DNA from: an uncultured Faecalicatena sp.
Lineage (GTDB): Bacteria; Bacillota; Clostridia; Lachnospirales; Lachnospiraceae
Assembly: GCA_948468385.1 (NCBI GenBank)
Contig: CAOKHZ010000014.1
Location: forward strand, 1 to 64,000
Direction: 5' to 3'
DNA length: 64,000 nucleotides
Position 1 is the stretch's first letter. Each line of letters begins with the position of its first letter. The translations under genes were made by a program, and so were the position numbers. The notes beneath the pieces are model-generated. The model was not told where the DNA came from. It saw only the letters and a program-made list of their open reading frames with translations, and searched no databases. Below, one piece after another: positions 37,098 through 52,769 of the stretch.

Positions 37098-37118
37098 CGT
37101 TCAACATGCTAATCTCAG

Positions 37119-37203
37119 GCATCCCTACGTTGGCATTATCCAAATCAGGTTATCGGTCGAAGGTCATACCTTCCTCTCAGCCTGTCATACAAGCTCCCGT
37201 CTG
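37119..37203 (-). promoter_or_regulatory. TPP (thiamine pyrophosphate) riboswitch aptamer
   Basis: Read on the minus strand the region contains the conserved aptamer elements in order: GGGAGC near the 5' end, GGCTGAGAGGA (the CUGAGA motif of the pyrimidine-sensing arm), ACCTGATTTGGATAATGCCA (the pyrophosphate-sensing arm) and CGTAGGGA. Upstream, around 37215-37262, TATGATAATAT can serve as a -10 box. A terminator follows at once. It should switch off thiW-thiM-thiE-thiD-thiC when TPP is plentiful. Confidence 0.94.
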
Positions 37204-37267
37204 TTTTATTGTCGAATATTATCATATCTCGTTTTTTCAAAAAAAGCAAGAAAAATCGAAAATTTGT

Positions 37268-42546: not shown

Positions 42547-43416
42547 TTATTTCCTAACCGAATCCATCCCATTCTCCGTAATGACTTGTTCTATCATCGG
42601 CTTAATATACTCATTATACCAGCGCAGTTGTCCGTCATGGTTCAGGTGAATGCCATCCTCGATAAACAGCGTCTCGTTAAAATTTGTCCCGTCATAAGTC
42701 AAAGCGTTCGCGTCCACGTAGTACAAGTAATCCGCTTCCTCCGCCAGCTTCTGCAACCGCTCGTTAATGGTCAGCGTGAGGTTCAAATATTCCGCACGTC
42801 CCGGTAACAGCAAGCCGCTCATGATGACGAACTTGGCATCCGGCATCTGCTCGTGAAAAGCGGCAAACATTTGCTTCTTATACTCCATGCATTTCTCAAT
42901 CTTCTCCTCATCCGTCCCCGACAGTTGCACGTAATCATTGGAACCGGTCTGGAAAAATACGATTTTCGGCTCGTATGGAAAAAGAATCCGATCGGCATAT
43001 CCTACCAGTTCCGCGTCAATGCTGCCGCCAAACGCATGGTTTTGTACCTTGTACTCGCTCATGTCTCCTTCCATCGTCTCCCACATGGAAAAATTGGACG
43101 CGCCGTAAAATATGATCTCGCCCTTGCGAGCCGTACTATATTTTTCCTCAATTTCTTTAATAAATCCCTCCCAATAATCGTGGCACTCCAATTCCGTCTT
43201 AATTTCAATCTTGGGATACTTCCCCACTTCATTTTTCACCATGTTTTCTTCCTTTCCCGTCTCCGTCTTTTCATCCACCACGCCATCCTCGTCTTGATGA
43301 TCTTCCTTGTTTTGTGGCTCCTCTTGCTTTGCCGTATCATCCTTGCCAGAGTCCTTTTCTCCACCACGTCCGGTCGCCATTCCCATGGCCATGATTCCGC
43401 GCGCGCAACTACGCAA
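42547..43416 (-). CDS. SGNH/GDSL-type hydrolase, full copy
   Basis: 289 residues. The SGNH blocks are present: nucleophile Ser in IIFYGASNFSMW, Gly in NHAFGGSID, Asn in TGSNDYVQL, and Asp/His in EDGIHLNHDGQ. It is probably a carbohydrate or lipid esterase. The first 75 residues are acidic and repetitive. The start is doubtful: the frame opens at 43416 without a ribosome site, while ATG 43441 has AGGAGG and codes MGKKLVKGFA then TAG. A one-base frameshift near 43415 may have broken a signal peptide. Residues from about 120 onward are duplicated at 44645-45172. Confidence 0.8.
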   Translation of the reverse strand: MRSCARGIMAMGMATGRGGEKDSGKDDTAKQEEPQNKEDHQDEDGVVDEKTETGKEENMVKNEVGKYPKIEIKTELECHDYWEGFIKEIEEKYSTARKGEIIFYGASNFSMWETMEGDMSEYKVQNHAFGGSIDAELVGYADRILFPYEPKIVFFQTGSNDYVQLSGTDEEKIEKCMEYKKQMFAAFHEQMPDAKFVIMSGLLLPGRAEYLNLTLTINERLQKLAEEADYLYYVDANALTYDGTNFNETLFIEDGIHLNHDGQLRWYNEYIKPMIEQVITENGMDSVRK

Positions 43417-44644: not shown

Positions 44645-45200
44645 TCATTTCCTAACCGAATCCATCCCGTTCTCCGTAATGACTTGTTCTATCATCGACT
44701 TAATATACTCATTATACCAGCGCAATTGCCCGTCATGGTTCAAATGTATCATGTCTTCGACAAACAGACTTTCATCGAAATTCGTCCCGTCATAAGTCAA
44801 GGCGTTCGCGTCCACGTAGTACAAATAATCCGTTTCCTCCGCCAACTTCTGTAATTCTTCATTGATTGTCAATGTCAAATTTAAATATTCCGCACGTCCT
44901 GGTAACAACAAGCCGCTCATGATAACGAACTTGGCATCCGGCATCTGCTCGTGAAAGACGGCAAACATTTGCTTCTTATATTCCATGCATTTCTCAATCT
45001 TCTCCTCATCCGTCCCCGACAGTTGCACGTAATCATTGGAACCGGTCTGGAAAAATACGATTTTCGGCTCGTATGGAAAAAGAATCCGATCGGCATATCC
45101 TACCAGTTCCGCGTCAATGCTGCCGCCAAACGCATGGTTTTGTACCTTGTACTCGCTCATGTCCCCTTCCATGTTTTCCCGTCTGGCAAAATTGGAAGCA
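44645..45200 (-). pseudogene. Truncated second copy of the SGNH hydrolase
   Basis: 175 residues from ATG 45172, nearly identical to the C-terminal part of the protein at 42547. Base identity continues to about 45200, then stops abruptly next to the end of the AAA gene. The nucleophile Ser block (YGASN) is missing, so the product should be inactive. There is no promoter or ribosome site of its own. Confidence 0.8.
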
Positions 45201-45208
45201 CTGATTTT

Positions 45209-46921
45209 CTATTCATTCTTCTCCAAGCCATATGCCACCCTGCAATTCTTTTTATAACACGCGATTCCATATTTATGGATTGTCTCCATCCCGTCTTGTT
45301 TCAGCACTTCGACATATCCATTCTTCTCAATCTGTTCCATAGCCCTGGAAAGGGTCTGCTCATAATCGCCATTTTCGGCATATTTGACCTCGATGATGCA
45401 GCCCGTCCTTGTCGAGGGGACTTCCAACCGGATGTCGGCATATCCGACTCCCGATTCCACATTCGACTTCACGGCCCAGCTCCCCTCTGCCTGCAACAGC
45501 CCAAGCATCATGCCGTGATAAAAGTTTTCCTTCATTTCTTTTTTCACACAAGTATCCCGGATGCTGATGGACGTAGACATGAATTCATTAAATAGTTCCT
45601 GCACCTTCGCGGCGTCTCCCGACTTCACGGCATCACAAAATTTCCGCCACCGGGCCGTATCACTTGTGATGCTCAATTTAAACCAGGAACGAATCCGCTT
45701 TTCGTAAATCCTTCGAACTTCCTTGTTCGGAATTACGAGCGTGTGCACCTCTCCCTCCGGCCTCTTTGCATCCGTCAGATACCCGGTGGCAAAAAGCACG
45801 CTCCACAAATAGGTCTGGCGCACGTCCATGTCCGGGCTTCCCAAGTCGGTATAAGTCAGTTCAGGAATCAGCACCTTTTCTATCGACTCGCCGGAAATCA
45901 GGGCCTCGATTTCACTTTTGGTCGTCTCCGTCGCCGTTGCCAGAATGTCCTGAACGATGGCGTTACTGCTACTATTTTCCCAGTGCGTCTCCATGGGTGC
46001 CTCCGGCCATGCCCGCAATTTATCGCATTGATTTAGCACGTCCCAAGGACAGTACACGTCCACGTCACCGAAATGATAGCCGTCATACCATTCCTTGATT
46101 TGCCCATGTGCGTGCTCGATTTCATAATAACGAAGCATTTCTTTTACCTCGTCATCCGTAAAACCAAAATATCTCGCAAAATCCAAATCAGAAATGGTTC
46201 TTACCTTAAAATTATTCAATCCCGTAAAGATGCTCTCCCGCGCAATTCGCAGGCATCCCGTGATGACGGCAAAATACAAGTTCTCATTTGTCTTAAGAAC
46301 CTGGCCAAACAAGGAACGAATCAAATCGACCATCTCAGGATAATACCCTTTTTGGTAGGCTTTATCCAAAGGCACGTCATACTCGTCTATCAAGACGATG
46401 ACCGGTATTTCATAATGTAAAAAAAGCAATTCCGTCAAAAATTTCAGGCTATCATGAAGATTAATATTTTTCTCAAAGTCGCCTCGCATCAAACAAATCA
46501 GTTCTTCTTTGTCAAATGTCGTCAATTTGTCGCTGTCTAAAAGAAAACGAAAACGTCTTGCCTCCGCGCTAATCGTAATGCCAAGCATGCCATAGGCCGT
46601 CTGGAAGTCCCTTCCCTCCACGCCTTTCAGACTGATGGAGACGACGGGATATTTGCCCATGTATCGTTCGCAAATGGCCGTTTCTTTTGAAATCTCCAAC
46701 CCGTCGAACAAAGACGAATCCGTGCCAATTTCAAAAAAGGTTTTCAACATGTCCATGTTCAGACTCTTGCCAAAACGCCGCGGCCTCGTAAACAAATTCA
46801 CGCTTCCGCGCAACTCTATCAAATCACGGATAAACCCCGTCTTATCCACATAATAAAAATCATCCCGCTTAAAGTTATCAAAAAATTCGATTCCGATCGG
46901 GAGCTTCTTCTTCCTTGCCAT
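45209..46921 (-). CDS. AAA-ATPase-like / PD-(D/E)XK nuclease-like protein, copy 1
   Basis: 570 residues. The N-terminal AAA-ATPase_like domain (PF09820 type) has the signature YYVDKTGFIRDLIELRG, the P-loop-like FTRPRRFGKSLNMDML and the Walker B-like VIVLIDEYDVPLDKAY. The C-terminal PDDEXK_9 domain has GVGYADIRLEVPS (the catalytic Asp) and GCIIEVKYA (the ExK motif). These proteins are expanded in clostridial and Bacteroides genomes, often as many near-copies; the biological role is unproven. It is preceded by GGAGGT and is probably co-transcribed with copy 2 upstream. Confidence 0.9.
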   Translation of the reverse strand: MARKKKLPIGIEFFDNFKRDDFYYVDKTGFIRDLIELRGSVNLFTRPRRFGKSLNMDMLKTFFEIGTDSSLFDGLEISKETAICERYMGKYPVVSISLKGVEGRDFQTAYGMLGITISAEARRFRFLLDSDKLTTFDKEELICLMRGDFEKNINLHDSLKFLTELLFLHYEIPVIVLIDEYDVPLDKAYQKGYYPEMVDLIRSLFGQVLKTNENLYFAVITGCLRIARESIFTGLNNFKVRTISDLDFARYFGFTDDEVKEMLRYYEIEHAHGQIKEWYDGYHFGDVDVYCPWDVLNQCDKLRAWPEAPMETHWENSSSNAIVQDILATATETTKSEIEALISGESIEKVLIPELTYTDLGSPDMDVRQTYLWSVLFATGYLTDAKRPEGEVHTLVIPNKEVRRIYEKRIRSWFKLSITSDTARWRKFCDAVKSGDAAKVQELFNEFMSTSISIRDTCVKKEMKENFYHGMMLGLLQAEGSWAVKSNVESGVGYADIRLEVPSTRTGCIIEVKYAENGDYEQTLSRAMEQIEKNGYVEVLKQDGMETIHKYGIACYKKNCRVAYGLEKNE

Positions 46922-46956: not shown

Positions 46957-48666
46957 CTATTCATTCCTCTCCAAACCATATGATACCCTGCAACTCTTTT
47001 TATAGCACGCGATTCCATATTTATGGATTGTCTCCATCCCGTCTTGTTTCAGCACTTCGACATATCCATTCTTCTCAATCTGCTTCATCGCATTGGCGAG
47101 GGTTTCCTCAAACCCTCCATCCTCGGCATATTTGACCTCGATGACGCATCCCGTCCTTGTCGAGGGGATTTCCAGCCGAATATCGACATATCCGACTCCC
47201 GATTCCGCATTCGACTTCACGGCCCAGCTTCCCTCTGCCTGCAACAACCCAAGTATCATGCCGTGGTAGAAATTCTCTTTCATTTCTTTTTTCACGCAAG
47301 TATCCCGGATACTGATGGACGTAGACATGAATTCATTAAACAGTTCCTGCACTTTCGCGGCGTCTCCCGACTTCACGGCATCACAAAATTTCCGCCACCG
47401 GGCCGTATCACTTGTGATGCTCAATTTAAACCAGGAACGAATCCGCTTTTCGTAAATCCTTCGAACTTCCTTGTTCGGAATTACGAGCGTGTGCACCTCT
47501 CCCTCCGGCCTCTTTGCATCCGTCAGATACCCGGTGGCAAAAAGCACGCTCCACAAATAGGTCTGGCGCACGTCCATGTCCGGGCTTCCCAAGTCGGTAT
47601 AAGTCAGTTCAGGAATCAGCACCTTTTCAATCGCCTCGCCGGAAATCAGGGCCTCGATTTCACTTTTGGTCGTCTCCGTGGCCGTCGCCAGGATGTCCTG
47701 CACGATGGCGTTACTGCTGCTGTTTTCCCAGTGCGTTTCCATGGGTGCCTCCGGCCACGCCCGCAGCTTGTCACATTGATTTAGCACGTCCCATGGACAG
47801 TACACCTCCACGTCGCCGAAATGATAGCCATCATACCATTCCTTGATTTGCCCATATGCGTGCTCGATTTCATAATAACGAAGCATTTCTTTTACCTCGT
47901 CATCCGTAAAACCAAAATATCTCGCAAAATCCAAATCAGAAATGGTTCTTACCTTAAAATTATTCAATCCCGTAAAGATGCTCTCCCGCGCAATTCGCAG
48001 GCATCCCGTGATGACGGCAAAATACAAGTTCTCATTTGTCTTAAGAACCTGGCCAAACAAGGAACGAATCAAATCGACCATCTCAGGATAATACCCTTTT
48101 TGGTAGGCTTTATCCAAAGGCACGTCATACTCGTCTATCAAGACGATAATCGGAATTTCATAATGCTTAAAGAGCAAACTTGTTAAAAGTTTCAAACTAT
48201 TATGAAGACGAACCGGATTTTCAAACTCTCCCCTTATTAAACCAATCAATTGTTCTTTGTCAAATGTCGTCAATTTATCACTATCCAAAAGATAATCAAG
48301 ACGTCCCGCCTCCGCGCCAATCGTGATACCAAGCATGTCATAGGCCGTCTGGAAGTTCCTCCCCTCCACGCCCTTCAAGCTGATGGAGACGACGGGATAC
48401 TTACCCATATATTGTTCGCAAATGGCCTTCTCCTTTGAAATTTCCAACCCGTCGAACAACGATGGGTTTGTACCGATTTCAAAAAAGGTTTTTAACATGT
48501 TCATGTTCAGGCTTTTGCCGAAACGCCGCGGCCTCGTAAATAGATTCACGCTTCCGCGCAGTTCTATCAAATCGCGGATAAAGCCCGTCTTATCCACATA
48601 ATAAAAATCATCTCTCTTAAAATCCTTGAAAAATTCAATTCCAATCGGTAGCTTCTTCCTTGCCAT
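46957..48666 (-). CDS. AAA-ATPase-like / PD-(D/E)XK nuclease-like protein, copy 2
   Basis: 569 residues from ATG 48666 (MARKKLPIGIEFF); the in-frame ATG at 48675 is only two bases from GGAGGT. Same domains as copy 1: FTRPRRFGKSLNMNML, IIVLIDEYDVPLDKAY, GVGYVDIRLEIPS and GCVIEVKYA. Most of the gene is almost base-identical to copy 1. The exception is a divergent block covering residues about 125-180 (RLDYLLDSDKLTTFDKEQL ... LLTSLLFKHYEIPI), and the last 80 codons differ slightly. That pattern indicates tandem duplication with later exchange. The promoter at 48705 reads into this gene first. Confidence 0.9.
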   Translation of the reverse strand: MARKKLPIGIEFFKDFKRDDFYYVDKTGFIRDLIELRGSVNLFTRPRRFGKSLNMNMLKTFFEIGTNPSLFDGLEISKEKAICEQYMGKYPVVSISLKGVEGRNFQTAYDMLGITIGAEAGRLDYLLDSDKLTTFDKEQLIGLIRGEFENPVRLHNSLKLLTSLLFKHYEIPIIVLIDEYDVPLDKAYQKGYYPEMVDLIRSLFGQVLKTNENLYFAVITGCLRIARESIFTGLNNFKVRTISDLDFARYFGFTDDEVKEMLRYYEIEHAYGQIKEWYDGYHFGDVEVYCPWDVLNQCDKLRAWPEAPMETHWENSSSNAIVQDILATATETTKSEIEALISGEAIEKVLIPELTYTDLGSPDMDVRQTYLWSVLFATGYLTDAKRPEGEVHTLVIPNKEVRRIYEKRIRSWFKLSITSDTARWRKFCDAVKSGDAAKVQELFNEFMSTSISIRDTCVKKEMKENFYHGMILGLLQAEGSWAVKSNAESGVGYVDIRLEIPSTRTGCVIEVKYAEDGGFEETLANAMKQIEKNGYVEVLKQDGMETIHKYGIACYKKSCRVSYGLERNE

Positions 48667-48704
48667 AAGATTCATACCTCCGCTTCTTTATAACATTTAA
48701 CCAT

Positions 48705-49360: not shown

Positions 49361-49942
49361 TCATGCCGCCTTCTTCGCCTCTCCCTCCGGGAAGATGATC
49401 TTGTTCACGAAGAAGAAGATTACCATCGAAATACCGCCGTTTAGCACCGTCGTCCCGATATTGTAAATGAAATCCGGCACGAACAAGCCGGCCACGGCCA
49501 CCCAGATGCAGTTCACCGAATTCACAATGCACGTAATCACGAAAAACGCAATCAAATACCAAAATCCCTGATACGCCACGTTCCCCTTGCTGCGGAACAC
49601 GATGTTTCTCTGTAACGGAAAATTGATGCACTCGCCAATAAACATGGCGATGATGTACGCGCAGAAATACGGCAGGCCACCGTGTGCCGCGTCGTATCCC
49701 AAAATGTTCCACTTAAACGTCTCGCCAAACAGCGTCACGTCAATTCCCGGCCAGCCGAAGTCCACCACTGGAAGACTTGCAAACGCGGCCGGTAAAAACT
49801 GTAACAATATGTACTTGAACACGGTAATCAGGTTGCTGACGATTACGAACAAGCCACCCTCGCGCACCCATTTCGCCGCTTTTGGGTTTTTCTCTGCAAA
49901 TCCGCCCCAAACGCCGAGCCACCAATTTTTTATTGCTTCCAT
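49361..49942 (-). CDS. GtrA-like multi-spanning membrane protein
   Basis: 193 residues with four membrane segments (for example GGLFVIVSNLITVFKYILLQ, YFCAYIIAMFIGECINF, FWYLIAFFVITCIVNSVNCIWVAVAGLF, GGISMVIFFFVNKIIF). The pattern, including FPLQRNIVFRSKGN between segments two and three, resembles the GtrA/DPMS family linked to transfer or flipping of lipid-bound sugars. It follows the GH3 gene on the same strand, and each of the two is preceded by a copy of the same structured leader. GGGAGG lies just before the start. Confidence 0.7.
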   Translation of the reverse strand: MEAIKNWWLGVWGGFAEKNPKAAKWVREGGLFVIVSNLITVFKYILLQFLPAAFASLPVVDFGWPGIDVTLFGETFKWNILGYDAAHGGLPYFCAYIIAMFIGECINFPLQRNIVFRSKGNVAYQGFWYLIAFFVITCIVNSVNCIWVAVAGLFVPDFIYNIGTTVLNGGISMVIFFFVNKIIFPEGEAKKAA

Positions 49943-49954
49943 GATAAAATCCTC

Positions 49955-50096
49955 CCTACTATGAGCTTGTTATGAGCACTTAATGCCTGTATTTCAGGCA
50001 TTTACGTGCGATACACGTCGTCGCCGTTAGCGAGGTTCTTCCGAGCTTACCAGACGACGCTTAGCACTTGCCTTTTGAGTGCTTACGTGCGAATAT
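49955..50096 (-). promoter_or_regulatory. Structured leader repeat A, before the GtrA-like gene
   Basis: 142 bases, starting two bases after the GH3 stop codon and ending just before the GGGAGG site of the GtrA-like gene. Read on minus: TCGCACGTA, hairpin AGCACT/AGTGCT, then GCGTCGTC...GACGACG enclosing a 25-30-base loop with CTCG/GCTAACG, then TCGCACGTA again, hairpin ATGCCTG/CAGGCAT, then AAGTGCTCATAACAAGCTCA. It is almost identical to 52531-52670 outside the first hairpin, whose two arms differ in compensating fashion. Confidence 0.7.
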
Positions 50097-50098
50097 CC

Positions 50099-52519
50099 TT
50101 ATCCGTTCAGTTTCGCCTCATATGCCTTGTTGGCCTTGGAGTTGGCGAAATATCCGCTGATAATCTTTCCCAGTCCCTTGAAGAAATGACCGTTCACCAC
50201 GAGCACCATGCCGCGCACCATGTCCATGCTGACCGCGCCCCCCGTCATCTTGGCAATGCCCCTGAAAGGCATGTTATAAATAAAAAGAATGTTCAAGTCC
50301 GGCTTGCCTTTCGCCTCGCTTTTTTCCTTCATGTTGGTCAAAATCTTGTAAATCAGCCGCGCCAGGCCGCTCTTGGCGTGGTTTAACTGGCAAATCGCGT
50401 CATTCACGCCAATCTCGCCAGTCCAACTCCCGTCCGGAATCGGAGTGCCCAGAAGTTCCGTAAACTCCGCGGCCTGCACGTTTTGCACGTTTCCGCCATA
50501 ATAAGACGGCAGCTTCGCCTGATCATACGGTATTTCCGCCTCGGTTCCCGTAATTGCCACTTCCGCTTCCAGACGGACATCCGCCACGTTCGCGCCAACC
50601 ATCACTTGGTAAGCTCCCCCTTCGATTTCCCACGCGTTGGTCTTTATATTCCAGTAACGGAAGGTCTTATCGTCAAAGAAAATCGTCACGTCCCTGCTCT
50701 CTCCCGCCTTCAAGAATACTTTGGCAAATCCTTTCAATTCCTTCGCCGGACGGAACACCTTGCCGCCCTTCATTCCCACGTAGAGCTGGGCAACCTCGGC
50801 CCCGTCACACTTTCCGCTATTTGTGACTTTAAAGGTCACGCCTTCGTCATTCACGCGCAAGTCGGAATAATCAAACGTGGTATAGGACAAGCCATAACCA
50901 AACGGATATTGCACTTTGACTCCTGCCGTGTCATAATAGCGATATCCCACGAAAATGCCCTCACGATACTCGGAGTTTCTTTCCTTGCTCGGGAAATTGT
51001 GATAAGCCGGGGTATCCTCGTATTTTACCGGATACGTTTCGTTAAGCTTCCCGGACGGATTTACCTTGCCGGTTAAAATGTCAAGCATCGCGCCTGCGCC
51101 CGCCTGGCCGTTCAAATATCCGTGAAGGATGGCCTTGCACGCGCCCTCCCACGGCATTTCCACCGACGCGCCCGCGCTCATCACGCCGATAATGTTCGGA
51201 TTGACCTTCGCCATCTCCTCAAGCAACTCGACTTGTACCTTGGGAATCCGCATATGTACACGGTCAAGTCCTTCGGACTCGCTCAGCTCGTCCAGGCCAA
51301 AATAATACAGCACCACGTCCGCCTCGCCTGCCAGAGCCAATGCCTCCCGCTTCAGGCCATCGTCCGCCTCGCCGGTTCTTTTATATCCCAGGCCTATCCC
51401 GGCCACCTGCAAATCATACTCGCCGATCACTTGCTGCGTCGTTTCCAGCCGCGTCGGGTTTACCACGGAAGAACCTGCCCCCTGGTATCTTGGCTCCACC
51501 GCGAAGTCACCGATAATAGCCACCTTGCAACCTGCTTGTAATGGTAAAATGTCATCCTCGTTCTTCAACAGCACCGCGCTCTCGTGCACCGCTTTTTTCG
51601 CCAAAGCATGATGCGCGTCCTTGTCAAAATCATTCGGCCTATTTTTCGCGCTCTCACTCAAAACCAGAATCGCGTCCAACAAGTCGTCCACGCACGCGTC
51701 CAACTCTTCCATTTTCAAGCTGCCATCATTCACCGCTGCAATTAATTCCCGCGCCGGGTCAAGTCCGGGAGCCGGCATTTCCAGGTTCGACCCTGCCGCC
51801 ACGCCCGCCACATGGTCGTTTGACGCACCCCAGTCGGTGATGACGATGCCGTCGAAGCCCCATTCGTTACGCAGGATTTCCTGCAAAAGATGCTTGTTTT
51901 CATTGGCATAAACGCCATTGACCTCATTGTAACTGGACATGATGGTCTTCGCCTCGCCCTCCTTGACGGCGATTTCAAAACCGGTCAGGTAGATTTCCCG
52001 CAACGTACGCTCGTCCAGCACGGCGTTCATCGCCATGCGCCGAAGCTCCTGCGAGTTCACCGCGAAATGTTTCGGGCAGGCATAAATGCCCTGGCTCTGG
52101 ATACCCCTCACGTAGGAGGCCGCCATTTTCCCCGCCAAATACGGATCCTCGGAAAAATATTCAAAATTTCTGCCGCAAAACGGGCTTCTCTTGATATTGA
52201 GTCCCGGCCCAAGCAACACGTGTACGTTCTGCGAGGACGCTTCCTCGCCCAAGGCCTGGCCCATTTCCTCGCCCAAGGCTTCATTCCAGCTGTTGGCAAT
52301 CGTCGCCGCCGTCGGGAAACACGTTGCCGGCAAGGACGCATTGAGCCCCAGGTGGTCGCCTTCCCCGGCCTGCTTGCGCACCCCGTGGGGGCCATCGCTG
52401 CAGAAAATGGACGGAATGCCAAGACGCTTCACGTCCCTCGTCTCCCACACCGTCTTGCCGCTTAAAATGGCACATTTTTCTTCCAGTGTCATCTTGTCAA
52501 TGATATCCTGATGTCTCAT
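50099..52519 (-). CDS. Beta-glucosidase-type glycoside hydrolase family 3
   Basis: 806 residues, canonical order. The (beta/alpha)8 domain starts KMTLEEKCAILSGK with CSDGPHGVRKQ, GRNFEYFSEDPYLAGKMAA and KHFAVNSQE; the nucleophile Asp is in VITDWGAS (D229). The alpha/beta sandwich domain has GLDELSESEGLDR (acid/base region). A fibronectin III-like domain has FGYGLSYTTFDYS and PAKELKGFAKV. The last 75 residues (from about KPDLNILFIYN) are an unusual amphipathic extension that might attach the enzyme to the membrane. There is no signal peptide. It probably acts on beta-glucosides or xylosides. Confidence 0.93.
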   Translation of the reverse strand: MRHQDIIDKMTLEEKCAILSGKTVWETRDVKRLGIPSIFCSDGPHGVRKQAGEGDHLGLNASLPATCFPTAATIANSWNEALGEEMGQALGEEASSQNVHVLLGPGLNIKRSPFCGRNFEYFSEDPYLAGKMAASYVRGIQSQGIYACPKHFAVNSQELRRMAMNAVLDERTLREIYLTGFEIAVKEGEAKTIMSSYNEVNGVYANENKHLLQEILRNEWGFDGIVITDWGASNDHVAGVAAGSNLEMPAPGLDPARELIAAVNDGSLKMEELDACVDDLLDAILVLSESAKNRPNDFDKDAHHALAKKAVHESAVLLKNEDDILPLQAGCKVAIIGDFAVEPRYQGAGSSVVNPTRLETTQQVIGEYDLQVAGIGLGYKRTGEADDGLKREALALAGEADVVLYYFGLDELSESEGLDRVHMRIPKVQVELLEEMAKVNPNIIGVMSAGASVEMPWEGACKAILHGYLNGQAGAGAMLDILTGKVNPSGKLNETYPVKYEDTPAYHNFPSKERNSEYREGIFVGYRYYDTAGVKVQYPFGYGLSYTTFDYSDLRVNDEGVTFKVTNSGKCDGAEVAQLYVGMKGGKVFRPAKELKGFAKVFLKAGESRDVTIFFDDKTFRYWNIKTNAWEIEGGAYQVMVGANVADVRLEAEVAITGTEAEIPYDQAKLPSYYGGNVQNVQAAEFTELLGTPIPDGSWTGEIGVNDAICQLNHAKSGLARLIYKILTNMKEKSEAKGKPDLNILFIYNMPFRGIAKMTGGAVSMDMVRGMVLVVNGHFFKGLGKIISGYFANSKANKAYEAKLNG

Positions 52520-52530
52520 TTAATCCTCCT

Positions 52531-52670
52531 CCTACTATGAGCTTGTTATGAGCACTTAATGCCTGTATTTCAGGCATTTACGTGCGATACACGTCGTCGC
52601 CGTTAGCGAGGTTTTTTCGAGCTTACCAGACGACGCTTAGTGCCTGTTCTTTAGGCACTTACGTGCGAAT
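52531..52670 (-). promoter_or_regulatory. Structured leader repeat B, before the GH3 gene
   Basis: 140 bases between the probable promoter region and the AGGAGG of the GH3 gene. Same plan as 49955-50096: TCGCACGTA, hairpin AGTGCCT/AGGCACT, GCGTCGTC/GACGACG long-loop stem, TCGCACGTA, hairpin ATGCCTG/CAGGCAT, AAGTGCTCATAAC. The remaining upstream bases 52671-52769 include an AT-rich stretch with GATAAAATATAAA on minus, a possible -10 region. No known riboswitch class was recognised. Confidence 0.7.
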
Positions 52671-52769
52671 GTACTCCGCCAACCTCCTTATTGCTTTATA
52701 TTTTATCAAAAAATTATTTGCATGCGCATTTTTTTCACAAACTGTATGGAATCGAGCATAAATCGTCTT

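Follow-up and report, generated by a model that had tools for sequence, protein, structure and literature searches.

Are two near-identical structured leaders, one ahead of a GH3 gene and the other ahead of its GtrA-like neighbor, a regulatory RNA confined to these two genes or members of a larger family? They lie in a 64,000-nucleotide (nt) stretch of an uncultured Faecalicatena sp. (assembly GCA_948468385.1, contig CAOKHZ010000014.1), the whole of which is called the window here. Its own genome is designated G000, and L numbers designate repeat loci. The answer that we favor, at a probability of roughly 0.6, is that the leaders are BOX/REP-like dispersed repeats that have settled at ribosome sites, where they are retained as folded 5′ leaders.

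Two leaders from a modular repeat family

The leaders form a direct repeat of 145 nt (49955–50099, copy A; 52531–52675, copy B) with 90% identity and a spacing of 2576, both in minus-strand orientation. The GH3 stop and the GtrA-like open reading frame (ORF) flank copy A, and copy B ends ahead of the GH3 start. A preliminary description of the window correctly reported near-identical leaders on the same strand before the GH3 and GtrA-like ribosome sites, and one hairpin whose arms change together between the copies (GCACT/AGTGC in copy A, GTGCCT/AGGCAC in copy B). Its treatment of the copies as a private pair proved too narrow. BLAST with copy A found 18 places in the own genome, both window copies included. 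A covariance model of the 44-nt hairpin H2, designated R1 and seeded with 14 own-genome copies, gave 60 matches there at E ≤ 0.1 and 52 at E ≤ 0.001.

When copies are compared side by side, the family resolves into two hairpin modules, H1 and H2, usually in the order H1, H2, AAGGAGG, start codon. H1 combines a freely varying outer stem with a conserved tip, CTARGCTCGnnnnnnCCTCGCYAAG; a pattern written for the tip has 40 exact occurrences in the own genome, and its reversal has 0. The outer stem of H2 is GCAC/GTGC, its inner stem varies, its loop is near AAANAC and it usually ends in GTGCTCATAGT. Type II H1 (a stem such as GTCGTC/GACGAC, then GTGTATCGCAC) forms tandem units of ∼92 nt. The window copies are each an older H2 interrupted by a type II unit, and the features of the locus are as follows.

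49951–49956, minus: ribosome site GGGAGG of the GtrA-like gene (start codon 49940–49942), directly 3′ of the copy A tail CTCATAGTA; read from the sequence, with most other sites sharing the layout.
49969–50012, minus: copy A hairpin H2, with outer stem GCAC/GTGC, inner stem ATGCCT/AGGCAT and loop GAAATAC, plus the tail GTGCTCATAAC; R1 match of 67.9 bits.
50015–50060, minus: copy A type II hairpin H1, with stem GCGTCGTC/GACGACGT and conserved TGGTAAGCTC..CTCGCTAACGGC; from sequence, fold and a seven-copy alignment.
50051–50093, minus: copy A older H2 (inner stem GCACT/AGTGC), its 3′ part interrupted by the type II unit; weak R1 match of 25.4 bits, E 0.0035.
52526–52533, minus: ribosome site AGGAGGAG of the GH3 gene (start codon 52517–52519); from sequence.
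52545–52588, minus: copy B hairpin H2, 44 nt identical to copy A; R1 match of 67.9 bits and 100% identity to the orthologous site in the relative G001.
52591–52636, minus: copy B type II hairpin H1; from sequence, fold and alignment.
52627–52669, minus: copy B older H2 (inner stem GTGCCT/AGGCAC), interrupted by the type II unit; R1 match of 37.8 bits.
52670–52680, minus: probable remnant of a type I H1 3′ arm (GGCGGAGTACA), from its likeness by eye to the GCGGAGTACATTCGCAC junction of type I copies.
52683–52690, minus: another sequence resembling a ribosome site, TAAGGAGG, at the upstream margin of copy B; from sequence.
49361–49942, minus: gene for a GtrA-like membrane protein of 193 amino acids (aa), downstream of copy A; ORF, named as in the preliminary description.
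50099–52519, minus: GH3 gene, 806 aa, downstream of copy B; ORF with a PF00933 match at G000:C14:51683-52426.

The older H2 of copy A starts ∼6 nt past the GH3 stop codon. A short flanking repeat is possible, with TAAGGAGG as its left copy.

Folding energies were compared with those of dinucleotide shuffles. Both strands fold better than the shuffles, with z values of −2.95 and −3.06 for the minus strand and −3.61 and −3.64 for the plus strand. Fold energy alone is therefore unable to name the strand, which is named by position and orientation over many copies. Pairing is maintained while the letters of the stems change. In the 14-copy seed of H2, 6 of 6 inner pairs vary on both sides and 97.9% of cells are paired. 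An alignment of 112 distinct H2 rows, fitted to the model, has 97.5% of 1,104 cells paired, with 199 double changes against 58 in shuffles. H1 lies outside the R1 model, and 51 distinct H1 sequences were chosen by sequence pattern from 120 sites; each folds singly as a hairpin, two of them weakly. The conserved loops are UCGAAARAACCUC and AAANAC.

The modules recur and combine in varying number, nested or in tandem, in the manner of BOX elements. At L241, the H2 inner hairpin of G001 is replaced in G000 and in another relative, G008, by an H1 plus an H2-like hairpin, an element within an element; at L035/L247 it is the H1 tip that is likewise replaced. No terminal inverted repeat was apparent at the copy ends, which were read by eye with no dedicated test.

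The same tips also occur in other settings. Loci L286, L303 and L307 (own contigs C1, C19 and C21) carry a different composite repeat, GGAAGTTCTTTTCGCTAA ... CCACTCAACTAGGCTCG..CTCGCCAAGTTTCGGGATGGGC, with the same H1 tip and no ribosome site seen 3′ of it. A third composite with the same tips, ending in GTGTTCATA..TATACC, is found at L289, L311 and L314 (own C6, C26 and C29) and is doubled in L289. Two H1 tips lie within an apparently decayed, by eye ATPase-like reading frame at L301 (own C16:38859-38929). In other genera (L059/L073 in G013, L060/L074 in G019, L061/L075 in G036), the H2 tip, approximately ACGTAAG-stem-AAANAC-stem-TAAGT, sits atop long palindromes that are otherwise different.

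Distribution and position before ribosome sites

At E ≤ 0.001, R1 was positive in 15 of 61 genomes, the own genome included. The richest relatives hold 82 (G008), 42 (G026) and 37 (G001) copies, and two genomes of the same genus hold 0. When 110 genomes were drawn evenly from the bacterial family, again including the own genome, 8 had a match at E ≤ 1e-8. An exact pattern search of genome contigs returned 17 stretches, of which 16 carry Lachnospiraceae in the title and the remaining one Konateibacter massiliensis. The exact pattern was unmatched in viral contigs and copy B had no blastn match among plasmids and phages, and a phage or plasmid origin was rejected on these results. No Rfam family reached its gathering cut-off at the window leaders or at nine loci, and a permissive scan gave two matches, far under the cut-offs; this agrees with the earlier statement that no described riboswitch is known with this plan.

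For locus reading and the position count, the weakest three of the 60 own-genome matches (C5:60790, C4:172203, C9:23482) were omitted, although C9:23482 lies in a genuine copy (L295). The other 57, five of which have E above 0.001, were merged into 49 sites, tandem copies counting once. In G008, G001 and G026, the matches listed were sampled best first, giving 43, 22 and 16 merged sites. In the sense direction, a start codon preceded by a Shine–Dalgarno sequence lies within 100 nt of 42 of the 49 G000 sites, 42 of the 43 G008 sites and 20 of the 22 G001 sites; two of these successes are false, L223 (G008) and L132 (G001), where the copies lie between tRNA genes. Two of the seven G000 sites without a start are at contig ends. 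The same test in antisense succeeds at 3, 1 and 2 sites, respectively. The distance from the H2 tail to the start codon is narrow, at 11–21 nt for 31 (G000), 36 (G008) and 17 (G001) sites. Random positions at the same G000 loci (n=27,189) have a start within 100 nt in 23.1% of cases and at 11–21 nt in 3.0%; outside long reading frames (n=1,650) the values are 16.3% and 1.2%. The preliminary description would have taken scatter at random positions and orientations as refuting a regulatory element; copies are indeed dispersed over the genome, but in the genus neither position nor orientation is random.

Two further placements were observed. In three species, the repeat lies between tRNA-Met and tRNA-Asp genes (L132 in G001, L050 in G003, L223 in G008). 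At L102, L103 and L131 in relatives, which are leaders of first genes, the H2 3′ half directly follows a −10-like box by eye, as if transcription began in the H2 loop.

Gain, loss and exchange at orthologous sites

Six genes (RarA, HydG, PurM, GlgP, RpiB and M18 peptidase) were chosen as element-bearing in G000, and orthologs were sought via their proteins. By eye, the element is present at 6 of 6 in G008; it is missing from RarA, HydG and RpiB in G001 and from PurM in G011, where only a short stretch separates stop codon and ribosome site. The reverse is seen at the L236 gene, where the site is occupied in G001 and empty in G000 and G008. Occupied and unoccupied orthologous sites thus occur together, as for a mobile repeat. 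At one gene, each of three species has its own subtype (L040/L244/L111). Patchy occupancy, differing modules at orthologs, and nested and tandem elements lead us to regard the family as mobile or amplifying.

The window leaders can be read in the same way. In G008, the GH3–GtrA gap contains a plain H1+H2 with inner stem GCACCT/AGGTGC, and only an H1 lies ahead of GH3. G001 has ahead of GH3 the same type II unit as the window, identical over the 44-nt H2. From these forms, the type II unit was probably already ahead of GH3 in the ancestor shared with G001, and it may have been copied to the GtrA leader later.

Pairing was followed across 19 ortholog pairs (4 of 23 were skipped for unequal length), which were found via the R1 model, a procedure that favors consensus-like copies. 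Of their base pairs, 163 are unchanged, 15 are changed on both sides and still paired, 8 are changed on one side and still paired, and 4 are broken. The RpiB copies of G000 and G008 also have paired changes in the H1 stem, by eye. In 12 of the 19 pairs, identity over the element is at least as high as over the adjacent 585-nt stretch (in one, this stretch is tRNA). The strong conservation of same-subtype copies at orthologous sites suggests constraint, although part of the conservation and pairing signal could be mimicked by gene conversion or by self-templated repair of the hairpin arms.

Explanations and relation to known repeats

Under the reading that we favor, short dispersed H1/H2 repeats, which nest and form tandems, would spread or amplify, perhaps by a route that favors AGG-type ribosome sites. 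In the genus they lie in sense directly 5′ of ribosome sites, in the space from the previous stop codon or promoter to AAGGAGG, and once transcribed they would form a folded 5′ leader that stops a few nt short of the ribosome site. Stems stay paired while modules swap or drop out. A cis effect on the next cistron is likely, in which the RNA may be shielded from decay and access to the ribosome site set.

Several observations weigh against this reading. In G026, which belongs to another genus, a start lies within 100 nt at 7 of 16 sites and at 11–21 nt at 0, so the link to ribosome sites does not extend to the whole family. RNAalifold returned no common structure for the mixed H1 alignment, for which reason H1 was judged by single folds. 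Thirteen of the 15 double changes at orthologous sites sit in four pairs where another subtype seems to replace the element, which indicates that pairing was kept through replacement and not through base-by-base compensation. The covariance-model check proposed in the preliminary description yields covarying stems among further copies, and mostly subtype replacement at orthologous sites. The empty sites that were read have no clean single-base junction. No transposase was found, Y1_Tnp being absent from the own genome, and no autonomous parent was seen in an H1-pattern search of one genome in which long spacings were not covered systematically. Beside H1-bearing copies (n=51), AGG stands on the left in 40, on the right (within 5 nt) in 39 and on both sides in 29; since a left GG was required by the copy-selection pattern, and a right AGG is expected because ribosome sites contain AGG anyway, this is no proof of target duplication. 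Note also that relatives were sampled best match first.

A bolder version of the proposal is tentative and rather unlikely. Here the element would be a translational leader that is also mobile: a self-nesting hairpin, drawn to ribosome sites or selected there, that brings its own AAGGAGG junction. Forty-odd unrelated genes of one bacterium would then share an RNA structure whose loops, UCGAAARAACCUC and AAANAC, might be recognized by one shared factor; the loop CCUC might pair with the ribosome site.

It is unlikely that the family is instead a true cis-regulatory RNA class, a riboswitch or protein-binding leader of a carbohydrate regulon whose patchiness reflects loss. The sense position at a narrow distance to the start, the conserved loops with covarying stems and the 12 of 19 pairs in which the element is at least as conserved as its surroundings all agree with such a class, and so does the share of GH3 among the downstream genes of the own genome. 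Among 42 downstream proteins in G000, Pfam matches include the GH3 C-terminal domain in 7 and MFS/sugar transport in 3; the other families are mostly single matches among the matches listed (25 of 61 families). With ∼39 GH3 genes in the genome (40 PF00933 match rows), 7 of 42 gives a nominal hypergeometric P of ∼1e-7, assuming 3,800 genes. GH3 follows the element at 1 of 41 in G008 and 1 of 19 in G001, both orthologous to G000 sites, in genomes with 40 and 44 PF00933 match rows; these counts come from blastp with the seven G000 proteins, by which a distant GH3 could be missed, and from protein sets that leave out two predicted proteins overlapping tRNA genes (L223, L132). Because GH3 is over-represented here but not in the sampled relatives, the family is not a sugar regulon. 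Other downstream genes include those for DNA gyrase/topoisomerase IV A, a tRNA synthetase, ATP synthase D, SpoVA, PurM, RarA and thioredoxin, and no coherent gene set emerges across species among the matches listed (25 of 61 and 25 of 71 families). Tandem arrays, nested copies, H1 tips in the apparently decayed frame at L301, copies between tRNA genes and a common core limited to two small loops also speak against such a class.

A sugar-specific riboswitch, considered as the principal explanation, was rejected due to the absence of the GH3 excess at the sampled G008 and G001 sites and the mixture of other targets. What survives of the proposed RNA element for each cistron is its paired changes across copies and its sense position; its restriction to a GH3/GtrA sugar operon does not survive, many unrelated genes having a copy upstream. 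The suggested association with sugar genes fails likewise, with GH3 enriched in the own genome only and some orthologous sites empty or holding other modules.

We also consider it improbable that the copies are passive repeats with an insertion or retention bias, where selection purges other insertions and the ribosome-site position is merely harmless. Insertion between a stop codon and a ribosome site would spare both genes, copy number is species-specific, and orthologous sites show module replacement and not base-by-base change, all as expected of a passenger; BOX repeats are themselves read as mobile and parasitic (PMC3049150). The same paper places BOX disproportionately between convergent genes, whereas the present copies lie in sense before start codons, and same-subtype copies are highly conserved at orthologous sites, subject to the mimicry by conversion or repair noted above.

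Movement of REP-type repeats by a RAYT/IS200-like single-strand transposase, present or lost, is very improbable and was rejected as unsupported: hairpins with conserved loops and variable stems suit such enzymes, but Y1_Tnp (PF01797) has 0 matches in the own genome (94% complete), is present in G004, a genome without copies, and does not follow copy number across 12 genomes. An integron attC-like site was considered and dropped because the stems differ wholly between copies.

To return to the favored dispersed-repeat reading, the nearest relative in kind is BOX of Streptococcus pneumoniae. BOX, as described in PMC3049150, is short and modular (boxA-boxB-boxC, with a variable number of modules), has >100 copies, a stable predicted RNA fold and a species-restricted, possibly parasitic character, and bears terminal inverted repeats and target duplications. 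The present family is likewise short, modular, folded and species-restricted; unlike BOX, its copies lie in sense, mostly 11–21 nt before start codons, and its modules nest inside hairpins. Miniature inverted-repeat transposable elements such as ERIC and Correia/NEMIS are described as small non-coding repeats that become part of transcripts, with a possible influence on RNA stability (PMC2229807, PMC3049150). They resemble the present family in being small non-coding repeats; for the latter, no parent insertion sequence was found and no terminal inverted repeat was seen by eye, and its position is linked to ribosome sites.

REP/BIME sequences are hairpins with conserved parts and variable stems that form tandem clusters, and RAYT-type enzymes act on hairpins with conserved loops and variable stems. 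The present family shares these traits with REP/BIME; unlike the REP/RAYT system, its own genome has no Y1 transposase match and its orientation is tied to genes. Riboswitches and protein-binding leaders have in common with it the 5′ leader position, covarying structure and adjacent ribosome site. Unlike them, the family has no core beyond two loops, no coherent gene set and no Rfam match, and its occupancy is patchy. We class the family as a variant of dispersed modular repeats, outside the BOX, REP and riboswitch classes, with BOX set apart by description and no BOX model compared. No description of it was found by title or abstract start in the open-licence PMC literature.

For dispersed bacterial repeats such as BOX, the usual view is that they persist where genes stay undisturbed. 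A repeat family found in the genus mostly at translation starts and in sense, with its fold kept amid module exchange, would show a route to a genome-wide 5′ leader, and the occupied and unoccupied orthologous genes are ready-made test pairs.

Elsewhere in the window, a thiamine pyrophosphate (TPP) riboswitch at 37104–37208 (minus) scores above the Rfam gathering score and is the sole Rfam match. Two closely similar reading frames at 42547–43416 and 44645–45172 (minus), the second shorter, are SGNH-hydrolase-like by eye. Adjacent paralogous genes at 45209–46921 and 46957–48675 (minus), of ∼570 aa each and AAA-ATPase-like by eye, share a 300-nt block of 90% identity, 1748 nt apart.

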